From contig JAPOOG010000077.1 in assembly GCA_026713545.1 (NCBI GenBank), positions 101,238-165,237 of the forward strand: a stretch of 64,000 nt of DNA, in the 5' to 3' direction. Under the pieces are notes generated by a model. That model made no database searches and was not told the origin of the DNA. It saw only the letters and a list, made by a program, of their open reading frames with translations. Source of the DNA: Bryobacterales bacterium (GTDB taxonomy: Bacteria; Acidobacteriota; Terriglobia; Bryobacterales; UBA6623). Positions 20,894 to 28,385 of this stretch are shown here, in pieces; the stretch's first letter is position 1; the number at the start of each line of letters is the position of its first letter. The translations under genes were made by a program, and so were the position numbers.

Positions 20894-22600
20894 GTGAACT
20901 CTCTTCAAACCGCGGCAGCCGTGACCGCACTCTCTCTCGCCATCCATTGCGTTCCCGTCGACCGGCCTGCACCCGAAGAACTGATGGTGGCCATGCGGGA
21001 CGGGGTTAAGCTGCGCACGAGCATCCGCCGGCCGGGTTTCGGCCGATACCCTGTCGTGCTCATCCGCGGCTACGACACCGACTTCTGGGGCGGCATCTCC
21101 AGCCGCTTCCTCGATGCAGATTACGTCTTCGTCGGTCAAGCGACCCGTGGACACCTCGGCTCGGAAGGTTCCCAGGGCATGGACAACCGTTTCTTCGACG
21201 ACGCGCGGGACGGCTACGACTGCATCGACTGGATCAGCCGGCAACCTTGGTGCGACGGCAAGGTCGCCATGTACGGCAGTTCCTACTATGGCGCGACCCA
21301 GTGGCTCACCGCACCCGAAGCGCATCCCAATCTGAAGGCAATTGTTCCTCAGAACGTCAATCCCGATCCCTGGCAACGCATGTATCGCGACCACGGCGCC
21401 ATCCAGCTCGCCCACACCGCCCGCCGCATTTATGACTATTCTGCGCAAGCCAAGCAACAGGTTGAGGAATTTGGATGGTGGAATTGGTATCGTCACTTGC
21501 CACTCATCACACTCGACACCGTTGCGGGTACGCGCCCTAACAAGCTCTACACCGACTATGTCTCCCACTCGACCTATGACGACTTTTGGAAGGCCATCGG
21601 CACCCGCCACAAGCTCAACAAGATCCGCATCCCCGTGTATCTGATGAGCGGCTGGTACGACAACTATCCCGGCGCGACGCTCGAGTATTTCGAGAAGCTG
21701 ACAAAGCTCGGTGCGTCAGACGAGATCCGGGTCGCTATCAGTCCGACCACGCACTCGCGAAACCGTGTTGTGGGAGACCGAGACTTCGGGGGAAACCCCG
21801 AAAAAGACGAGATCGGACTGGCGATTCGCTGGCTTGATTATGTCGTAAAGGGAACCGAAAACGGTATTCGCGACGAACCCAAGATCCGCCTCTTCGTCAT
21901 GGGAATCAACGAATGGCGACTCGAAAACGAATGGCCCCTCGCTCGCACCCGGTTCACGAAATACTACTTCCATGCCAACGGCGAAAAGGACGGCACGCTC
22001 GGCGCCGCTCCGACGCAAGACGAGCCGCCTACGCGCTATATCTACGATCCTGACGACCCGGTCCCTACGCTCGGCGGCAACCATTCCGCGACGGAGATAC
22101 CGGGTATCATTCGGGCCGGTCCCGTCGATCAGCGCCCCAACGAGAACCGTCAGGATGTCCTGGTCTTCACGAGTGAGCCGCTGGACCGGGATCTCGAAGT
22201 CACGGGCCCGGTCGCCGTGAAGCTCCACGCCGCATCTTCTGCGCGCGACACAGACTTCATTGCACGTCTCATCGACGTCTACCCGGACGGCCGAGCCTTC
22301 AACCTCACCGAAGGCATCCTCCGCGCTCGGTTTCGCGAGTCCATCTGGGAACCGCCACTCCTGCTCGAGCCGGACAGACCCTACGAGTACACGATCGATC
22401 TGCTTCCGACCGCCAATGTCTTTCGGAAGGGTCATCGCATCCGAGTGCATATCACGAGCAGCAACTTCCCCATGTGGGACCGCAATCCGAACACCGGCAA
22501 CGAACAGGGAATGGACGCGGAACTCAAGATCGCCCAACAAACCATCTATCACGACAGGGCTCGTCCGTCGCACATCCTGTTGCCCGTGATTCCCGAATGA
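20894..22600 (+). CDS. CocE/NonD family (S15-type) alpha/beta hydrolase
   Basis: The 568-residue product has MVAMRDGVKLRTSIRRP, the nucleophile elbow YGSSYYG (Ser130), the GWYDNYPGA segment, a late DTDFIARLIDVYPDG and HRIRVHITSSNFP. These parallel the hydrolase at 1664-3469 almost motif by motif, but this one has only a short hydrophobic N-terminus and no clear cleavage site. The start is GTG, supported by AGGA seven bases ahead. The reaction is likely hydrolysis of an ester or amide; substrate unknown. The his leader promoter begins 16 bases after its stop. Confidence 0.88.
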   Translation: MNSLQTAAAVTALSLAIHCVPVDRPAPEELMVAMRDGVKLRTSIRRPGFGRYPVVLIRGYDTDFWGGISSRFLDADYVFVGQATRGHLGSEGSQGMDNRFFDDARDGYDCIDWISRQPWCDGKVAMYGSSYYGATQWLTAPEAHPNLKAIVPQNVNPDPWQRMYRDHGAIQLAHTARRIYDYSAQAKQQVEEFGWWNWYRHLPLITLDTVAGTRPNKLYTDYVSHSTYDDFWKAIGTRHKLNKIRIPVYLMSGWYDNYPGATLEYFEKLTKLGASDEIRVAISPTTHSRNRVVGDRDFGGNPEKDEIGLAIRWLDYVVKGTENGIRDEPKIRLFVMGINEWRLENEWPLARTRFTKYYFHANGEKDGTLGAAPTQDEPPTRYIYDPDDPVPTLGGNHSATEIPGIIRAGPVDQRPNENRQDVLVFTSEPLDRDLEVTGPVAVKLHAASSARDTDFIARLIDVYPDGRAFNLTEGILRARFRESIWEPPLLLEPDRPYEYTIDLLPTANVFRKGHRIRVHITSSNFPMWDRNPNTGNEQGMDAELKIAQQTIYHDRARPSHILLPVIPE

Positions 22601-22616
22601 TTTGCCTCTGAGTCCC

Positions 22617-22644
22617 TTGACCGTTTGTCGCCTCGTCATATACT
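22617..22644 (+). promoter_or_regulatory. his operon promoter
   Basis: TTGACC (22617-22622) and TATACT (22639-22644) are separated by 16 bases; each matches the sigma-70 consensus at five of six positions. Transcription would start around 22650-22655, at or just before the ATG of the His leader peptide. Confidence 0.7.
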
Positions 22645-22654
22645 GAAACTTCGA

Positions 22655-22735
22655 ATGCGGTTCGAGCGGCATCACCGGCATCATCACTACGCCCATGCAA
22701 GGCGCAGCGGCCGGCGGCTGCGCGGAAAACGGTAA
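22655..22735 (+). CDS. hisL: Histidine leader peptide
   Basis: This 26-codon frame reads MRFERHHRHHHYAHARRSGR and then six more residues before TAA. Six of the nine residues 6-14 are His. Such runs upstream of his genes serve as sensors: when charged tRNA-His is scarce the ribosome stalls in the run and changes the fold of the RNA downstream. There is no ribosome binding site ahead of the ATG, and the predicted transcript start is only 0-5 bases upstream, so translation may begin on a leaderless or nearly leaderless message. An attenuator follows directly. The His content and the context make a chance frame unlikely. Confidence 0.85.
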   Translation: MRFERHHRHHHYAHARRSGRRLRGKR

Positions 22736-22791
22736 ACGTCCAACTTTTCCGAGACCCGAAGCCCGCCGGCATCGTGCCGAGCGGGTTTTTT
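22702..22791 (+). promoter_or_regulatory. his attenuator: pause hairpin, antiterminator and terminator
   Basis: Three competing pairings are visible. The first hairpin pairs GCGCAGC (22702-22708) with GCTGCGC (22717-22723). The terminator pairs CCCGCCGGCA (22762-22771) with TGCCGAGCGGG (22775-22785; one bulged A) and is followed by six T. The antiterminator pairs GCCGGCGG (22710-22717) with CCGCCGGC (22763-22770), eight perfect base pairs. It uses the loop of the first hairpin and the 5' arm of the terminator, so the states exclude each other. A ribosome stalled at the His codons (22670-22696) would block the first hairpin, favour the antiterminator and let RNA polymerase reach hisI. Confidence 0.85.
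22760..22791 (+). terminator. Attenuator terminator of the his operon
   Basis: A ten-pair GC-rich stem with a TCG loop and one bulged A is followed by TTTTTT at 22786-22791. It ends about 22 bases before the hisI start codon, so it can only act as a conditional stop on the operon's own transcript. Confidence 0.85.
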
Positions 22792-22813
22792 GTTTATTAA
22801 TGAAAGGTGCAAC

Positions 22814-23188
22814 ATGGAAGTGAACTTTTTGAAAACAAACGGGCTGGTGCCGGCAGTGATTCAAGACGCGGCTGACAGCACGGTCCTGATGGTCGGTTTC
22901 ATGAACCAGAAAGCCCTGGATCTGACGCGCGAAACCGGCCGAGTGACGTTCTACAGCCGATCGCGAGACAAGCTTTGGACGAAGGGCGAGACCTCAGGCC
23001 ACTACCTGTTGGCGAAAGAAATCCTGGTCGATTGCGACGAAGATACGCTGGTCATCAAGGTCGAGGCGCTAGGTCCGGGCGTTTGCCATAATGGCTTTAG
23101 GAGTTGCTTCTATCGCCGTTGGGAAGGCGGTGAGTGGAAGCAGGTCGACCAGCCGGCTTACGATCCCGCCTCGGTTTACAAGTCGTAG
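22814..23188 (+). CDS. hisI: Phosphoribosyl-AMP cyclohydrolase
   Basis: HisI opens the adenine ring of phosphoribosyl-AMP, the third step of histidine synthesis. The 124-residue protein has TVLMVGFMNQKAL, FYSRSRDKLWTKGETSGHYL, the metal site DCDEDTL and CHNGFRSCFYR. There is no fused HisE (phosphoribosyl-ATP pyrophosphatase) domain. I choose the ATG at 22814 because it aligns with the family start; an in-frame codon at 22790 would lie in the terminator T tract. It is the first gene of the seven-gene his operon. Confidence 0.95.
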   Translation: MEVNFLKTNGLVPAVIQDAADSTVLMVGFMNQKALDLTRETGRVTFYSRSRDKLWTKGETSGHYLLAKEILVDCDEDTLVIKVEALGPGVCHNGFRSCFYRRWEGGEWKQVDQPAYDPASVYKS

Positions 23189-23205
23189 TTTCTTCCGGGC
23201 ATCCC

Positions 23206-24468
23206 ATGCTGAAGATCATCGGGAGCACTGACGAGCCTGCTCTGGAGCGGTTGTTGAAGCGGCGTCAGACGCGTTGGGACCGCGCCGAGGCGACTGTGAC
23301 ACCGATTCTGGAGGCTGTCCGCAAGCGTGGCGACCGGGCTCTTCTGGAGTACGCTCGCAAGTTCGATCGGCTCGAAAGAGCGTCACTTCGCATCCCCGCT
23401 GCTGAGCTGACCTCTGCAGAAAAGGAACTTCCCAAAGACTTGCGGCGAGCCATCCAGACGGCCTCGCGTCAAATCCGGCGGTTTGCCGAACTACAGAAGC
23501 CGCGCAGTTGGACGAAGTCCATAGGCGGAGCAAAGCTTGGCCAGATCGTTCGTCCTTTGTCTTCCGTGGCCGCCTACGTTCCCGGCGGACGCTACCCTCT
23601 GCCCTCGACGCTGATGATGACGGTCATCCCGGCCCAGGTGGCGGATGTGCCCATCGTGTCCGTCGCGTCTCCTGGACCCTCGCCCGCGACGTTGGGCGCC
23701 GCCGGCTACCTTGGCGTGTCGAACTTCTTCCACATGGGCGGTGCGCAGGCCATCGCTGCATTCGCCTTCGGGACGGAATCCGTGCCTCGCGCCGAACGCA
23801 TCGTCGGACCCGGCAACATCTACGTCGCGGCGGCGAAGAAGCTGCTCGCCGGGAGTGTCGGAATCGACTTTTTTGCGGGCCCAACGGAGATTCTTTTAAT
23901 CGCCCCCAAGGAGGCCACAACGAAGGACGCCCGGGGCCTCGCCGCCGACATGCTTGCACAAGCCGAGCACGATGTAGACGCGAGTGCCGTGTTGCTTACG
24001 AGTTCGAAGCGTCTTGCCCGATGGGTTGCGGCGGAGGTCTCTCGGCAACTCGAAACGCTGACTACTCGTGACGTCGCATCCAAATCCATCGCACGTAACA
24101 GCGCCATCATAGTGGTTTCGTCCTCCGACGAGGCGATGGAACTCGCAAATCGCTTCGCCCCGGAGCATCTTTCCGTTCCCGATGCCTCATGGCTGGACAG
24201 CATCAAGAACGCTGGCAGCATCTTCGTCGGGAGTTGGAGTCCTGAGGCGGCCGGTGACTACGCATCCGGCCCGAATCACGTTCTGCCGACCGGAGGAGGC
24301 GCCACCCTGCGCGGCGGTCTGTCGGTGTTGGACTACGTAAAGATCATCTCCGTTCAGGAGTTGAACGAGAAGAGCCTGCGCGCCCTTGCACCGGCTATCA
24401 CGACACTGGCGCGCGCCGAGGGCCTGGAAGCCCATGCTCGATCGATTGAGGCGCGTCTCGATGGCTGA
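23206..24468 (+). CDS. hisD: Histidinol dehydrogenase
   Basis: HisD performs the last two oxidations, L-histidinol to L-histidine, with NAD and Zn. The 420-residue protein has YVPGGRYPLPSTLMM, AGAQAIAAFAFG-like (GGAQAIAAFAFGTE), VGPGNIYVAAAKKL, GPTEILLIA, APEHLSVPD and AAGDYASGPNHVLPTGG, which include the catalytic Glu-His pair and zinc ligands. The ATG at 23206 follows hisI by 17 bases. The open frame continues upstream into hisI but homology starts at MLKIIG. It overlaps hisC by eight bases. Confidence 0.96.
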   Translation: MLKIIGSTDEPALERLLKRRQTRWDRAEATVTPILEAVRKRGDRALLEYARKFDRLERASLRIPAAELTSAEKELPKDLRRAIQTASRQIRRFAELQKPRSWTKSIGGAKLGQIVRPLSSVAAYVPGGRYPLPSTLMMTVIPAQVADVPIVSVASPGPSPATLGAAGYLGVSNFFHMGGAQAIAAFAFGTESVPRAERIVGPGNIYVAAAKKLLAGSVGIDFFAGPTEILLIAPKEATTKDARGLAADMLAQAEHDVDASAVLLTSSKRLARWVAAEVSRQLETLTTRDVASKSIARNSAIIVVSSSDEAMELANRFAPEHLSVPDASWLDSIKNAGSIFVGSWSPEAAGDYASGPNHVLPTGGGATLRGGLSVLDYVKIISVQELNEKSLRALAPAITTLARAEGLEAHARSIEARLDG

Positions 24469-25546
24469 CACAACCCTGACGGTGCGGCCGCAACCACGCG
24501 AAGCCATCGTGCGGATGGCTCCCTACCACCCTCCCACAAGCGGACGGCGCGGTAAGTTGCGTCTCGACTTCAACGAAAACACCGTCGGCTGCTCGCCGCG
24601 TGTGGCGGCGTTGCTGAAGCGGATTGCCGAACCTGACTTTTTTGCAATCTATCCCGAATACACCGAAGCGTCTCCAAAAATCGCGGAGTGGCTGGGACTC
24701 GGCCACGATCAACTGCTTCTCACGAACGGCACCGACGAGGCGATCCAATGCCTCATCAACACCTACGTCGATGCAGGCGACGAGGTCCTCTTCACGTGGC
24801 CGACATATGCGATGTATCAGTTCTATGCTGAACTCGCCGGAGCGACTCCCCGGCGGGCGCCGTACCTGCTTCCAGAATTGGCATTCCCTCTCAAGGAGCT
24901 TCTGGACAGTATCTCTGAACGCACGAGTGCGATCCTTCTCGCCAATCCGAACAACCCTACCGGAAGCGCGATCGGAATAACCGAAATCGAGCAGATCCTC
25001 GATCGGGCCGGAGAAGCGGTGGTGCTGATCGATGAAGCGTATTTCGAGTTCTACAATGTCACGGCGCTCGACCTGCTTGAGGCCCATCCGAACCTTTTCG
25101 TGAGCCGTACCTTCTCCAAAGTCTATGGCATGGCCGGATTCCGCCTCGGCTGTCTGCTATCACAGGCTGAAAACGTCGCTGCGATCGCCAAAGGGCAGTC
25201 ACCCTACAGCGTGAATTCGTTGGCCGCGGCTTGCTCTCTGGAGGCGATTGACGACCAGGAGTACATCAACAACTACGTCACCGAGGCGCTCGTCGCGCGG
25301 CAAGTTCTCGCAGCCGGCCTCTCCGATCTCGGAATAAAGCACTTTCCCAGCGAAGCGAATTTTGTCCTGGCGCGGTTCGGGGATCGGTCGAAGGCTGTCT
25401 GCGACCGGTTGCGCGAGCGGGGCATCCTGATACGCGACCGCAGCCACGAGATTCCCGGAACCGCTCGGATCACAGCCGGAAGGCGCGACCAAGCCGAAAA
25501 ACTACTCGAAGAGCTAAAGCAGATCCTGACCGACATCAAAGGTTGA
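24461..25546 (+). CDS. hisC: Histidinol-phosphate aminotransferase
   Basis: HisC transfers an amino group from glutamate to imidazole acetol phosphate using PLP. From the ATG at 24461 the product is 361 residues, with [43 protein letters not shown], and the PLP lysine in [14 protein letters not shown], and a conserved Arg in PGTARITAG. An alternative ATG at 24434 would lengthen the overlap with hisD. A role in other aminotransfer reactions is possible in this family, but the operon position settles the assignment. Confidence 0.94.
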
Positions 25547-25553
25547 GCGCATC

Positions 25554-26153
25554 ATGAAAATAGCTTCCATCGTCAGGAATACCAATGAAACGCAGCTCCG
25601 CGGCCAACTGCGCATCGCGGGGAAAGGCAAGTACAACGTCTCGACGGGAATCCATTTCTTCGACCACATGCTCGAGCTGTTCGCTAAGCATGGTGGCTTT
25701 GATCTCGATCTCAAGGCTAGCGGCGACCTCAATGTTGACCAACACCACACCGTCGAAGACGTCGGGATCGTGCTCGGCCAATGCTTCTCAAAAGCTCTCG
25801 GAGATCGAGTCGGTATCAACCGTGCCGGCTACTTCGTGATGCCGATGGACGAGTCCCTCGCCGTCGTTGCGGTCGATCTCAGCGGGCGTCCGGCGCTGGT
25901 CTATCACGCTCCTACGAGCTTCCGTCTCGTCGGGGATCTGCAAGCCGAGCTTTTGCACGACTTCTTCGACGGTTTCGTAAACCACTGCGGCTGCAACCTG
26001 CACGCTCGCGTGCTGTACGGACGATCGAATCACCACAAGATCGAAGGACTGTTCAAATGTTTCGCGCGGGCCATGCGCTTTGCCTGCTCGACGGACGAAC
26101 GGCTGAAAGACCAGCTCCCGAGCACCAAGGGATTGCTGGAGGTGAAAGCGTAG
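25554..26153 (+). CDS. hisB: Imidazoleglycerol-phosphate dehydratase
   Basis: HisB dehydrates imidazoleglycerol phosphate. The 199-residue protein is the single-function form without a phosphatase domain. Metal-site motifs are present twice, as the family requires: HFFDHML with [10 protein letters not shown], and the later HDFFDGF with [13 protein letters not shown]. Histidinol-phosphate phosphatase must therefore come from another gene, which is not in this operon. Gaps to hisC and hisH are seven and four bases. Confidence 0.96.
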
Positions 26154-26157
26154 CTCC

Positions 26158-26760
26158 ATGATCGCCATCTTTGACTACGGCGCCGGCAACCTTCGGTCCG
26201 TCGAGAATGCCCTCGACGCGATCGAAGCGAAGTATGAGATCGTCAATGACGCCGAAGGTCTGAGCCGGGTCGACAAGATCATTCTGCCTGGCGTCGGCCA
26301 CTTCGGACAGTTGATTCGGTCGCTAGACTCGCTTGGTGTTCGCGAAGCCTTCAAGGAACGCATCTCCGCTGGCGTGCCCTTTCTCGGCATCTGCTTGGGA
26401 TTGCACGCCCTCTTCGAGAGCAGCGAAGAAGCACCGGAACTCCACGGCCTTGGCGTCTATCCCGGTGAAGTCAAGCGGTTCCCCAAGGACGCACGCGTGC
26501 CTCACATGGGTTGGAACGAACTGGTATCGCAAGGCAGTCCACGGTTACTCGCCAACCTCCCGTACCGGCCTTACGTCTATTTCGCACACAGTTACTACGT
26601 GCCCGAAGACATCGGCAGTGACAAGTCAGCCGCTTTCTGCGAATACGGAGTTCGCTACACGGCTGCACTGGAAGCCGGAAACGTGTTCGGCGTACAGTTC
26701 CACCCCGAAAAGTCCGGCTCGGTTGGCCAGCAGATTGTCCGTAACTTCCTGGCATGCTAG
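26158..26760 (+). CDS. hisH: Imidazole glycerol phosphate synthase, glutaminase subunit
   Basis: HisH releases ammonia from glutamine and passes it to HisF. The 200-residue class I amidotransferase has the start [16 protein letters not shown], the nucleophile Cys in [23 protein letters not shown], the oxyanion-side YFAHSYYV and the His-Glu pair in [10 protein letters not shown]. All catalytic residues are in place. It overlaps hisF by seven bases, fitting equimolar production of the two subunits. Confidence 0.96.
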
Positions 26761-27518
26761 CGAAGCGCATCATTCCCTGCCTGGATGTCAAAGCAGGGCG
26801 TGTTGTCAAAGGCGTCAACTTCGTCGGGTTGCGCGATGCGGGCGATCCGGTCGAGTTGGCCAAAGTCTATAACCGCGACGGAGCGGATGAGCTGGTCTTC
26901 CTTGATATCACTGCCTCCAGCGACCGCCGTGAAATCATGAAAGACGTCGTCGAGCGGACCGCCCGGCAAGTCTTCATTCCGCTCACGGTGGGTGGCGGCA
27001 TCCGCTCCGTCTCAGACGCTCGGGACATTCTCGTTGTCGGCGCGGACAAGGTATCGGTCAACACCGCCGCTGTCGAGCGCCCCGAGTTGATCACCGAACT
27101 CTCCGAGGAGTTCGGTGCGCAGGCGGTCGTTCTCGCCATAGACGCTCGCCGCAACGGTCCCAGCCACTGGAATGTCTACACCTATGGAGGCCGCAAAGAC
27201 ACGGGTATCGACGCCGTTGAGTGGGCCGCTCGCGGCGAAGGGCTCGGCGCCGGTGAAATACTGCTCACCTCGATGGACCGTGACGGCACTCAAGTCGGCT
27301 TTGACTGTGAGCTTACCCGCGCTATCTCCCGCAACACGCACATCCCAGTCATTGCGAGCGGCGGAGGCGGGCGGCCCCAGGATTTCATTAACGTACTCGA
27401 CCAAGGAGAGGCCGACGCCGCATTGGCTGCGTCGATCTTCCATTACGGGACGCACACCGTCATCGGTCTCAAGCAGACGCTCAAGGAATATGGCGTCGCG
27501 GTGCGCACGACGGGCTAG
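26754..27518 (+). CDS. hisF: Imidazole glycerol phosphate synthase, cyclase subunit
   Basis: HisF uses ammonia from HisH to form imidazole glycerol phosphate and AICAR. The 254-residue half-barrel repeat protein has [72 protein letters not shown] and IASGGGG. The catalytic Asp residues in CLDV and AIDA/MDRDG positions are present. Its start overlaps the hisH stop. After its end comes a 141-bp gap before hisA, the largest in the operon. Confidence 0.96.
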
Positions 27519-27659
27519 ATCGACCGTGCCACACTGCAACTACTCTCTTGACAGGGCTGTCCGCTGGTTCACGATCGAAGAACTTGACTCCAGAATCTGG
27601 AATATTCCGGAATCATTCCAATTCCACGGCCGGCAAGCAAAGAGGCGTCTCACAACACC

Positions 27660-28385
27660 ATGATCATTCCCTGCATTGATCTGATGGGCGGCAAAGTTGT
27701 CCAATTGATCCAAGGACGCAAGAAGGCGCTGGAGGGCGAGTCGCCCGAAGTGATGCTCAAAAAGTTCGCGGCCTTCCCCGAGATTCAGGTGATTGACCTC
27801 GATGCGGCGATGGGCAGGGGGTCGAACAACGACATCGTGCTGAAGTTGGCATGCAGCGCCATCGTGCGGGTGGGCGGCGGTGTCCGGTCGGTCGAGCGGG
27901 CCCGCGAACTCGTCGAAGCCGGTGCCTCCAAGGTCATTATCGGCACCTCCGCTTTTGATGCAAACGGCGTCCGACATGACTTCCTGAGGGAAGTCAGCCG
28001 GGCGATCGGGAAGGATCGGCTCCTATCCGCGCTTGATTCAAAACGCGGGCATATCGTCGTCAAGGGCTGGCAAGAGGCCACTTCATGGCGGGCGGAAGAG
28101 GTCATTGGCCAACTCGAACCCTATAGTGGGGGATTCCTCTGTACCTACGTCGACAAAGAGGGGATGATGCAGGGGACCGACCTCGATTGGTATCGCCGTC
28201 TCCGCCTAGCCACACGGCTGGAGCTGACCGCTGCCGGAGGCATTACCACCATCGAAGAGATCAAAGCGCTCGACGAACTCTCGATCCACGCAGCACTGGG
28301 AATGGCGATCTACACCGGACGTCTGAATCTCGACGAATTGACGGACCTGCAAAATAAAGGCTCCCGTGGATGCACGGGAGCCTGA
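27660..28385 (+). CDS. hisA: ProFAR isomerase, divergent HisA
   Basis: HisA isomerises ProFAR to PRFAR before HisH/HisF act. The 241-residue barrel starts IIPCIDLMGGKVVQLIQG and has VIDLDAAMGRGSN, VRVGGGVRSVERA, ALDSKRGHIVVKGW and TAAGGITTIEEI. Both catalytic Asp positions (in CIDL and ALDS) are present. The CIDLMGGKVVQLIQG start differs from the common ALDLIDGKVVRL pattern, so this is a divergent branch. A 141-bp gap separates it from hisF; a TTGACA lies in it (about 27549) but no matching -10 was found. A terminator for the facing gene lies inside its last codons. Confidence 0.9.
   Translation: MIIPCIDLMGGKVVQLIQGRKKALEGESPEVMLKKFAAFPEIQVIDLDAAMGRGSNNDIVLKLACSAIVRVGGGVRSVERARELVEAGASKVIIGTSAFDANGVRHDFLREVSRAIGKDRLLSALDSKRGHIVVKGWQEATSWRAEEVIGQLEPYSGGFLCTYVDKEGMMQGTDLDWYRRLRLATRLELTAAGGITTIEEIKALDELSIHAALGMAIYTGRLNLDELTDLQNKGSRGCTGA
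28358..28383 (-). terminator. Intrinsic terminator for the dksA-like gene, inside the 3' end of hisA
   Basis: Arms AGGCTCCCGTG and CACGGGAGCCT form a perfect 11-pair stem with a four-base loop. On the minus strand the stem is followed by TTTATTTTG, a usable T-rich tail; on the plus strand no T tract follows. The hairpin therefore suits the minus-strand gene ending at 28427, although it lies within hisA codons. Confidence 0.72.

Follow-up and report, generated by a model that had tools for sequence, protein, structure and literature searches.

The hisIDCBHFA operon of a Bryobacterales bacterium is preceded by a His-rich leader frame

The window analyzed here (i.e., the whole stretch of 64,000 nucleotides) comes from a member of the Bryobacterales (Acidobacteriota), and the original prediction was right in taking its host for an acidobacterium. 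The seven-gene his operon that had been placed downstream of the leader was borne out by NCBIfam, which names all seven his genes (HisA under the curated cut-off, the other six over it). The gene upstream encodes a CocE/NonD hydrolase and ends at 22600; between it and hisI lies just the terminator of the leader. On the + strand between 22580 and 28450, TTGACC/TATACT is the only promoter-like match. The features of the locus are:

22617-22644, + strand: promoter, with -35 element TTGACC (22617-22622), 16-nt spacer and -10 element TATACT (22639-22644), read directly
22651-22655, + strand: predicted transcription start, 0-4 nt ahead of the leader ATG, placed from the -10 position
22655-22735, + strand: leader peptide ORF, ATG at 22655, TAA at 22733-22735, 26 codons including 6 for His
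22666-22679, + strand: strand 1 (5' side of the protector), pairs 22666-22670/22717-22721 and 22675-22679/22710-22714
22670-22696, + strand: sensor His codons 6, 7, 9, 10, 11 and 14, read directly
22702-22723, + strand: 7-bp hairpin of the original prediction, GCGCAGC (22702-22708) and GCTGCGC (22717-22723); the complementarity is real, predicted to be transient only, and not conserved
22710-22721, + strand: strand 2, partner of strand 1 (protector) or, via 22710-22717, of strand 3 (antiterminator)
22758-22791, + strand: intrinsic terminator, stem about 22758-22785, six T at 22786-22791, -22.0 kcal/mol
22763-22770, + strand: strand 3, core of the terminator 5' arm and antiterminator partner of 22710-22717
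22814-28385, + strand: regulated operon hisI-hisD-hisC-hisB-hisH-hisF-hisA (NCBIfam), hisI ATG at 22814

Direct reading of 22655-22735 gives the translation MRFERHHRHHHYAHARRSGRRLRGKR, i.e., a short ORF rich in codons for His, the product of the operon itself, and an intrinsic terminator is present between this ORF and the first gene, hisI. Strand 1 overlaps the first His codons of the leader, and GCCGGCGG (22710-22717) and CCGCCGGC (22763-22770) are exact reverse complements. Direct reading thus confirmed the promoter, the 26-codon His-rich leader and the terminator with six T as originally described; the parts of an attenuator ahead of hisIDCBHFA are real.

Within the operon, genes are tightly packed except for a gap of 141 nt between hisF and hisA (27519-27659), which in some relatives (L144, L147) holds an apparent NUDIX-type gene. 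The hisG gene lies outside this operon and follows a hisZ-like frame at another site in the genome; no leader was found between these two.

The leader recurs ahead of hisI in the order and in other families of the phylum

Of the 61 genomes of the order, 60 yielded a HisI match, and 46 of these 60 carry a His-rich leader ORF upstream of hisI, defined by a length of 8-70 codons and 4 or more His within 9 codons. Two more genomes have thinner versions of the leader (MTPTVARHHHAFTRRAVS in G026 and MKFVLHYLCTHHAYPSG in G003). A further genome (G006, L007/L143) keeps a promoter-like TATGCT box, a CAT GCC CAT CAT stretch and the terminator ahead of hisI; a standard start codon was sought at the expected leader start and not found, and this leader is possibly decayed or provided with a rare start. 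In genus g6 (11 genomes, G007-G017), hisI is kept and the leader is absent upstream of it; the operon begins with hisI where inspected. These genomes count against the switch proposed below.

In a sample of the phylum (about 1.2 Mb of acidobacterial DNA), both strands of 40 regions, each no longer than 16 kb, were scanned for a His-rich ORF plus terminator. This yielded 32 matches, of which 30 were directly upstream of hisI, one was upstream of hisG and one lay elsewhere. Because 30 of 32 matches stand directly ahead of hisI, the combination of leader and terminator is beyond chance. The hisI-linked matches came from all 20 sampled genomes of f4, a second family of the class, and from 10 of 20 other members of the phylum, the latter having been picked mostly from better HisI matches and not as a random sample. 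In another acidobacterial family (G209, contig C17, L211), a His-rich leader, MFTASSHFHLHHHHATHRRVN, precedes hisG instead of hisI.

Overall, the promoter, the leader frame, the pairings and the terminator occur again in register in 76 relatives, while the peptide apart from His is highly variable. The original prediction was to be abandoned if relatives kept hisI with neither a His-rich frame nor compensatory changes in the pairings; the opposite was observed, as the relatives retain both the frame and matched pairings.

Leader codons are matched to two mutually exclusive pairings

The predicted fold of 22650-22800 (-60.3 kcal/mol, z -1.74) is not striking alone, and the case for a switch is based on comparative evidence, not on this fold energy. 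Pairing probability by itself, a thermodynamic measure, did not tell the free state of the window from the stalled one, as truncation and 5' pairings obscure the difference; minimum-energy folds with state-specific blocking and synonymous-recoding controls were used instead. A column-by-column, motif-anchored covariation table was usable for the Bryobacterales; it mis-registered strand 2 in family f4, where this strand has a different sequence, GCGUGUUGGCGGC, and was dropped.

In ribosome-free RNA of the window, the protector and the terminator were predicted to form. When the first or the third His codon was occupied, the full-length minimum contained the antiterminator 22710-22717/22763-22770 plus further pairs, so that the 8-bp antiterminator proposed originally does appear in folds with a ribosome on the His codons; once the ribosome was moved to the stop codon, the terminator alone remained. 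Among 77 leaders, an antiterminator of at least 6 bp formed in 76 when the ribosome was modelled on His codons and in 9 when it was modelled at the stop, where the terminator formed in 76. Computationally, the leader therefore has the arrangement that marks an attenuator, i.e., an antiterminator that shares the 5' arm of the terminator and is freed by modelled stalling at sensor codons. For full-length RNA at equilibrium in the stalled state, the antiterminator was kept in 25 of 77 leaders only, which would be expected of a kinetic switch but does not prove one. The window's own antiterminator also forms in free, truncated RNA (0.76), and protection in ribosome-free RNA would therefore depend on kinetics.

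Both pairings were stronger between strands of the same genome than between permuted strands (antiterminator, -18.4 versus -16.3; protector, -28.7 versus -24.9), with 0 of 5000 permutations for each, also within clades, which partly controls for kinship. Moreover, synonymous recoding of the leaders of 46 order members weakened both pairings (P = 9 × 10-15 and 1 × 10-16, Fisher). In the stalled state, capture of the terminator arm fell upon recoding (0.78 versus 0.59, P = 3 × 10-11); in the free state it did not change (0.53 versus 0.55). These results indicate that the codon choice of the leader, and not the peptide alone, is tuned to the switch.

The 7-bp hairpin at 22702-22723, which had been put forward as a pause element, was not supported. 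Its probability was 0.00-0.01 in ribosome-free RNA, where a different protector built on the His codons reached 0.98-0.99, and no counterpart was found in the third member of the genus; it was thus rejected as a conserved pause or protector element. As it reached 0.7-0.98 when early His codons were covered and the terminator arm was not yet made, the hairpin may at most be transient.

The leader frame is probably translated without a Shine-Dalgarno sequence

Zheng et al. (2011, PMC3160421) recognize leaderless genes by a -10 box some 12 bp upstream of the start codon together with the absence of a Shine-Dalgarno sequence, and report that such genes account for 13% on average in three Acidobacteria. 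Sufficient upstream sequence was available for 44 order members. In 42 of them, a -10 box (TAnnnT, identical to TATAAT at 4 or more of 6 positions) ended 7-12 nt upstream of the leader ATG; in some relatives with alternative in-frame ATGs, our choice favored the ATG near the His run. Shuffled controls gave a mean of 1.8 and a maximum of 7 in 200 trials, and hisI starts gave 0 of 45. A TGn extension was also present in 31 of the order members with the box. GGAG, GAGG or AGGA was found before the leader ATG in 0 of 45 cases, as compared to 12 of 34 hisI starts. In the window, the gap between the -10 box and the leader ATG is 10 nt, and the predicted 5' untranslated stretch is therefore 0 to about 4 nt. 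Elsewhere in the genome, TATACT at 6-9 nt upstream of an ATG showed no excess (15 versus 17 in a reversed control). With its -10 spacing and no Shine-Dalgarno sequence, the leader falls within the sequence definition of a leaderless mRNA, and its translation from the predicted start is probably leaderless or almost leaderless.

A histidine-sensing attenuator and its alternatives

From the computed parts, pairings, conservation and matched pairing we infer the start site, translation, stalling, termination and histidine response of the following model, in which the leader region very probably acts as a cis-acting, ribosome-mediated transcription attenuator that senses charged tRNA-His and controls hisIDCBHFA. 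Transcription would begin at the leader AUG or a few bases before it, and a ribosome would load at the 5' end of the RNA without a Shine-Dalgarno sequence and trail RNA polymerase. With ample His-tRNA, the ribosome would reach the UAA at 22733 and cover strand 2, the terminator at 22758-22791 would form and the transcript would stop before hisI. With scarce His-tRNA, a ribosome stalled on the His codons would disrupt strand 1 of the protector (22666-22679); the freed strand 2 (22710-22717) would pair with strand 3 (22763-22770), no terminator would form and hisIDCBHFA would be transcribed. In the event of no translation, strands 1 and 2 would pair and the terminator would form. The claim of his attenuation in an acidobacterium is thus well supported as far as a His-specific switch with an exact antiterminator is concerned, and not with respect to the pause hairpin at 22702-22723. 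Neither the predicted start of transcription so close to the leader ATG nor the spread of the element through the phylum was part of the original prediction.

One could suppose instead that the leader and terminator act in trans as a small RNA, or that they serve to make a small, His-rich (metal-binding) peptide, with constitutive readthrough into hisI. The terminated transcript would indeed be a small leaderless mRNA, and both the trpL attenuator RNA and its peptide act in trans in Sinorhizobium meliloti (PMC7298713). However, 31 of the 32 scan matches are tied to hisI or hisG, and the non-His residues of the peptide vary greatly while the matched pairings are preserved, so that we consider a trans-acting product improbable. 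Still less probable is control of hisI by another cis element (a T-box, a histidine riboswitch or a protein-bound leader) beside an incidental His-rich frame: T-boxes and HisR do serve his genes in other phyla (PMC9413887), but no credible Rfam match was found in this stretch of the window (E up to 10) or in eight sources including relatives (E up to 1), and the His-rich frame recurs across families despite differing surroundings. That a chance His-rich frame merely adjoins the ordinary terminator of the hydrolase gene would fit with the stop of this gene at 22600 and the lack of a second terminator before hisI; the recurrence of all these parts, in register, in the 76 relatives, together with the promoter and the pairings, refutes this reading, to which we assign next to no probability.

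Comparison with known attenuators

Searches against Rfam with positions 21500-24000 of the window (E up to 10) gave no credible match and neither His_leader nor T-box; eight sources including relatives (E up to 1) likewise gave no His_leader and no T-box. By this covariance-model test the attenuator described here is therefore outside both families, although modelling suggests that it would work like His_leader attenuators. Like the his attenuator of E. coli and Salmonella (Rfam His_leader; PMC3896937), it has a His-rich peptide, precedes a his biosynthesis operon and has mutually exclusive protector, antiterminator and terminator pairings. Unlike that attenuator, it shows no Rfam similarity, is predicted to be leaderless, has interspersed His codons (HHRHHH, HHGHHHHHH) instead of seven consecutive ones, is followed by hisI instead of hisG as the first gene and has its protector strand within the His codons.

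Attenuators with leaderless leaders have precedents. In S. meliloti trpL (PMC7298713), the 5' end of the transcript is at the leader AUG and a terminator lies downstream, as predicted for the acidobacterial 5' end; trpL, on the other hand, is alphaproteobacterial, senses Trp and controls trpE(G). The leader peptide of the Corynebacterium glutamicum ilvBNC attenuator is likewise reported to be made without a ribosome binding site (Morbach et al. 2000, cited in PMC10272879); that system, in the Actinobacteria, responds to branched-chain amino acids.

Attenuators of his genes have been described in Proteobacteria and predicted in some Firmicutes (PMC9413887; PMC2965389), with candidates in the Bacillus cereus group, Peptostreptococcaceae and Erysipelotrichales (PMC9413887) and a His leader ahead of hisS/hisZ in bacilli (PMC2965389). 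The Firmicutes candidates resemble the acidobacterial element in combining a predicted His leader peptide, a terminator and an antiterminator outside the Proteobacteria; they have three to five consecutive His, and the two studies do not cover such an element in Acidobacteriota, for which almost all predicted attenuators were noted to be without assigned function (PMC2965389). The literature searched for leader peptides or attenuation in Acidobacteria yielded no description; the most relevant older survey (Lopatovskaya et al. 2010, Mol Biol 44:128) may mention one. As no description was found in Rfam or the literature searched, we count this classical-type switch as new for, and apparently undescribed in, the Acidobacteriota.

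Less securely, though more probably than not, this is a phylum-wide histidine attenuator of the Acidobacteriota. It would be ancient there and have no sequence relationship to its proteobacterial counterpart, and ribosomes would start its sensor frame leaderless at the 5' end of the RNA, which would make initiation and coupling to RNA polymerase independent of a Shine-Dalgarno sequence. The element is present in the majority of the genomes sampled from one order and from a second family, and it also occurs in additional families of this phylum, which is common in soil; it would thereby extend leader-peptide control past Proteobacteria, Actinobacteria and Firmicutes. The leaderless start would provide a natural setting in which to study how a ribosome loaded at the extreme 5' end can reach RNA polymerase soon enough to couple to it, and the differing strand sequences across recurrences represent many ready-made variants for testing models.

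Other amino acid operons of the same genome

In the same genome, no other leader was evident upstream of trpE or leuA. On contig C48 of this genome (G000, L220), a short ORF rich in Ile, Val and Leu, MLEAEPRRIAILQIQSSIIVVAVSSPG, lies ahead of ilvB (at 76120) and is followed by a strong hairpin and a T run, about 150 nt upstream of ilvB; this ORF and hairpin are likely a branched-chain attenuator.
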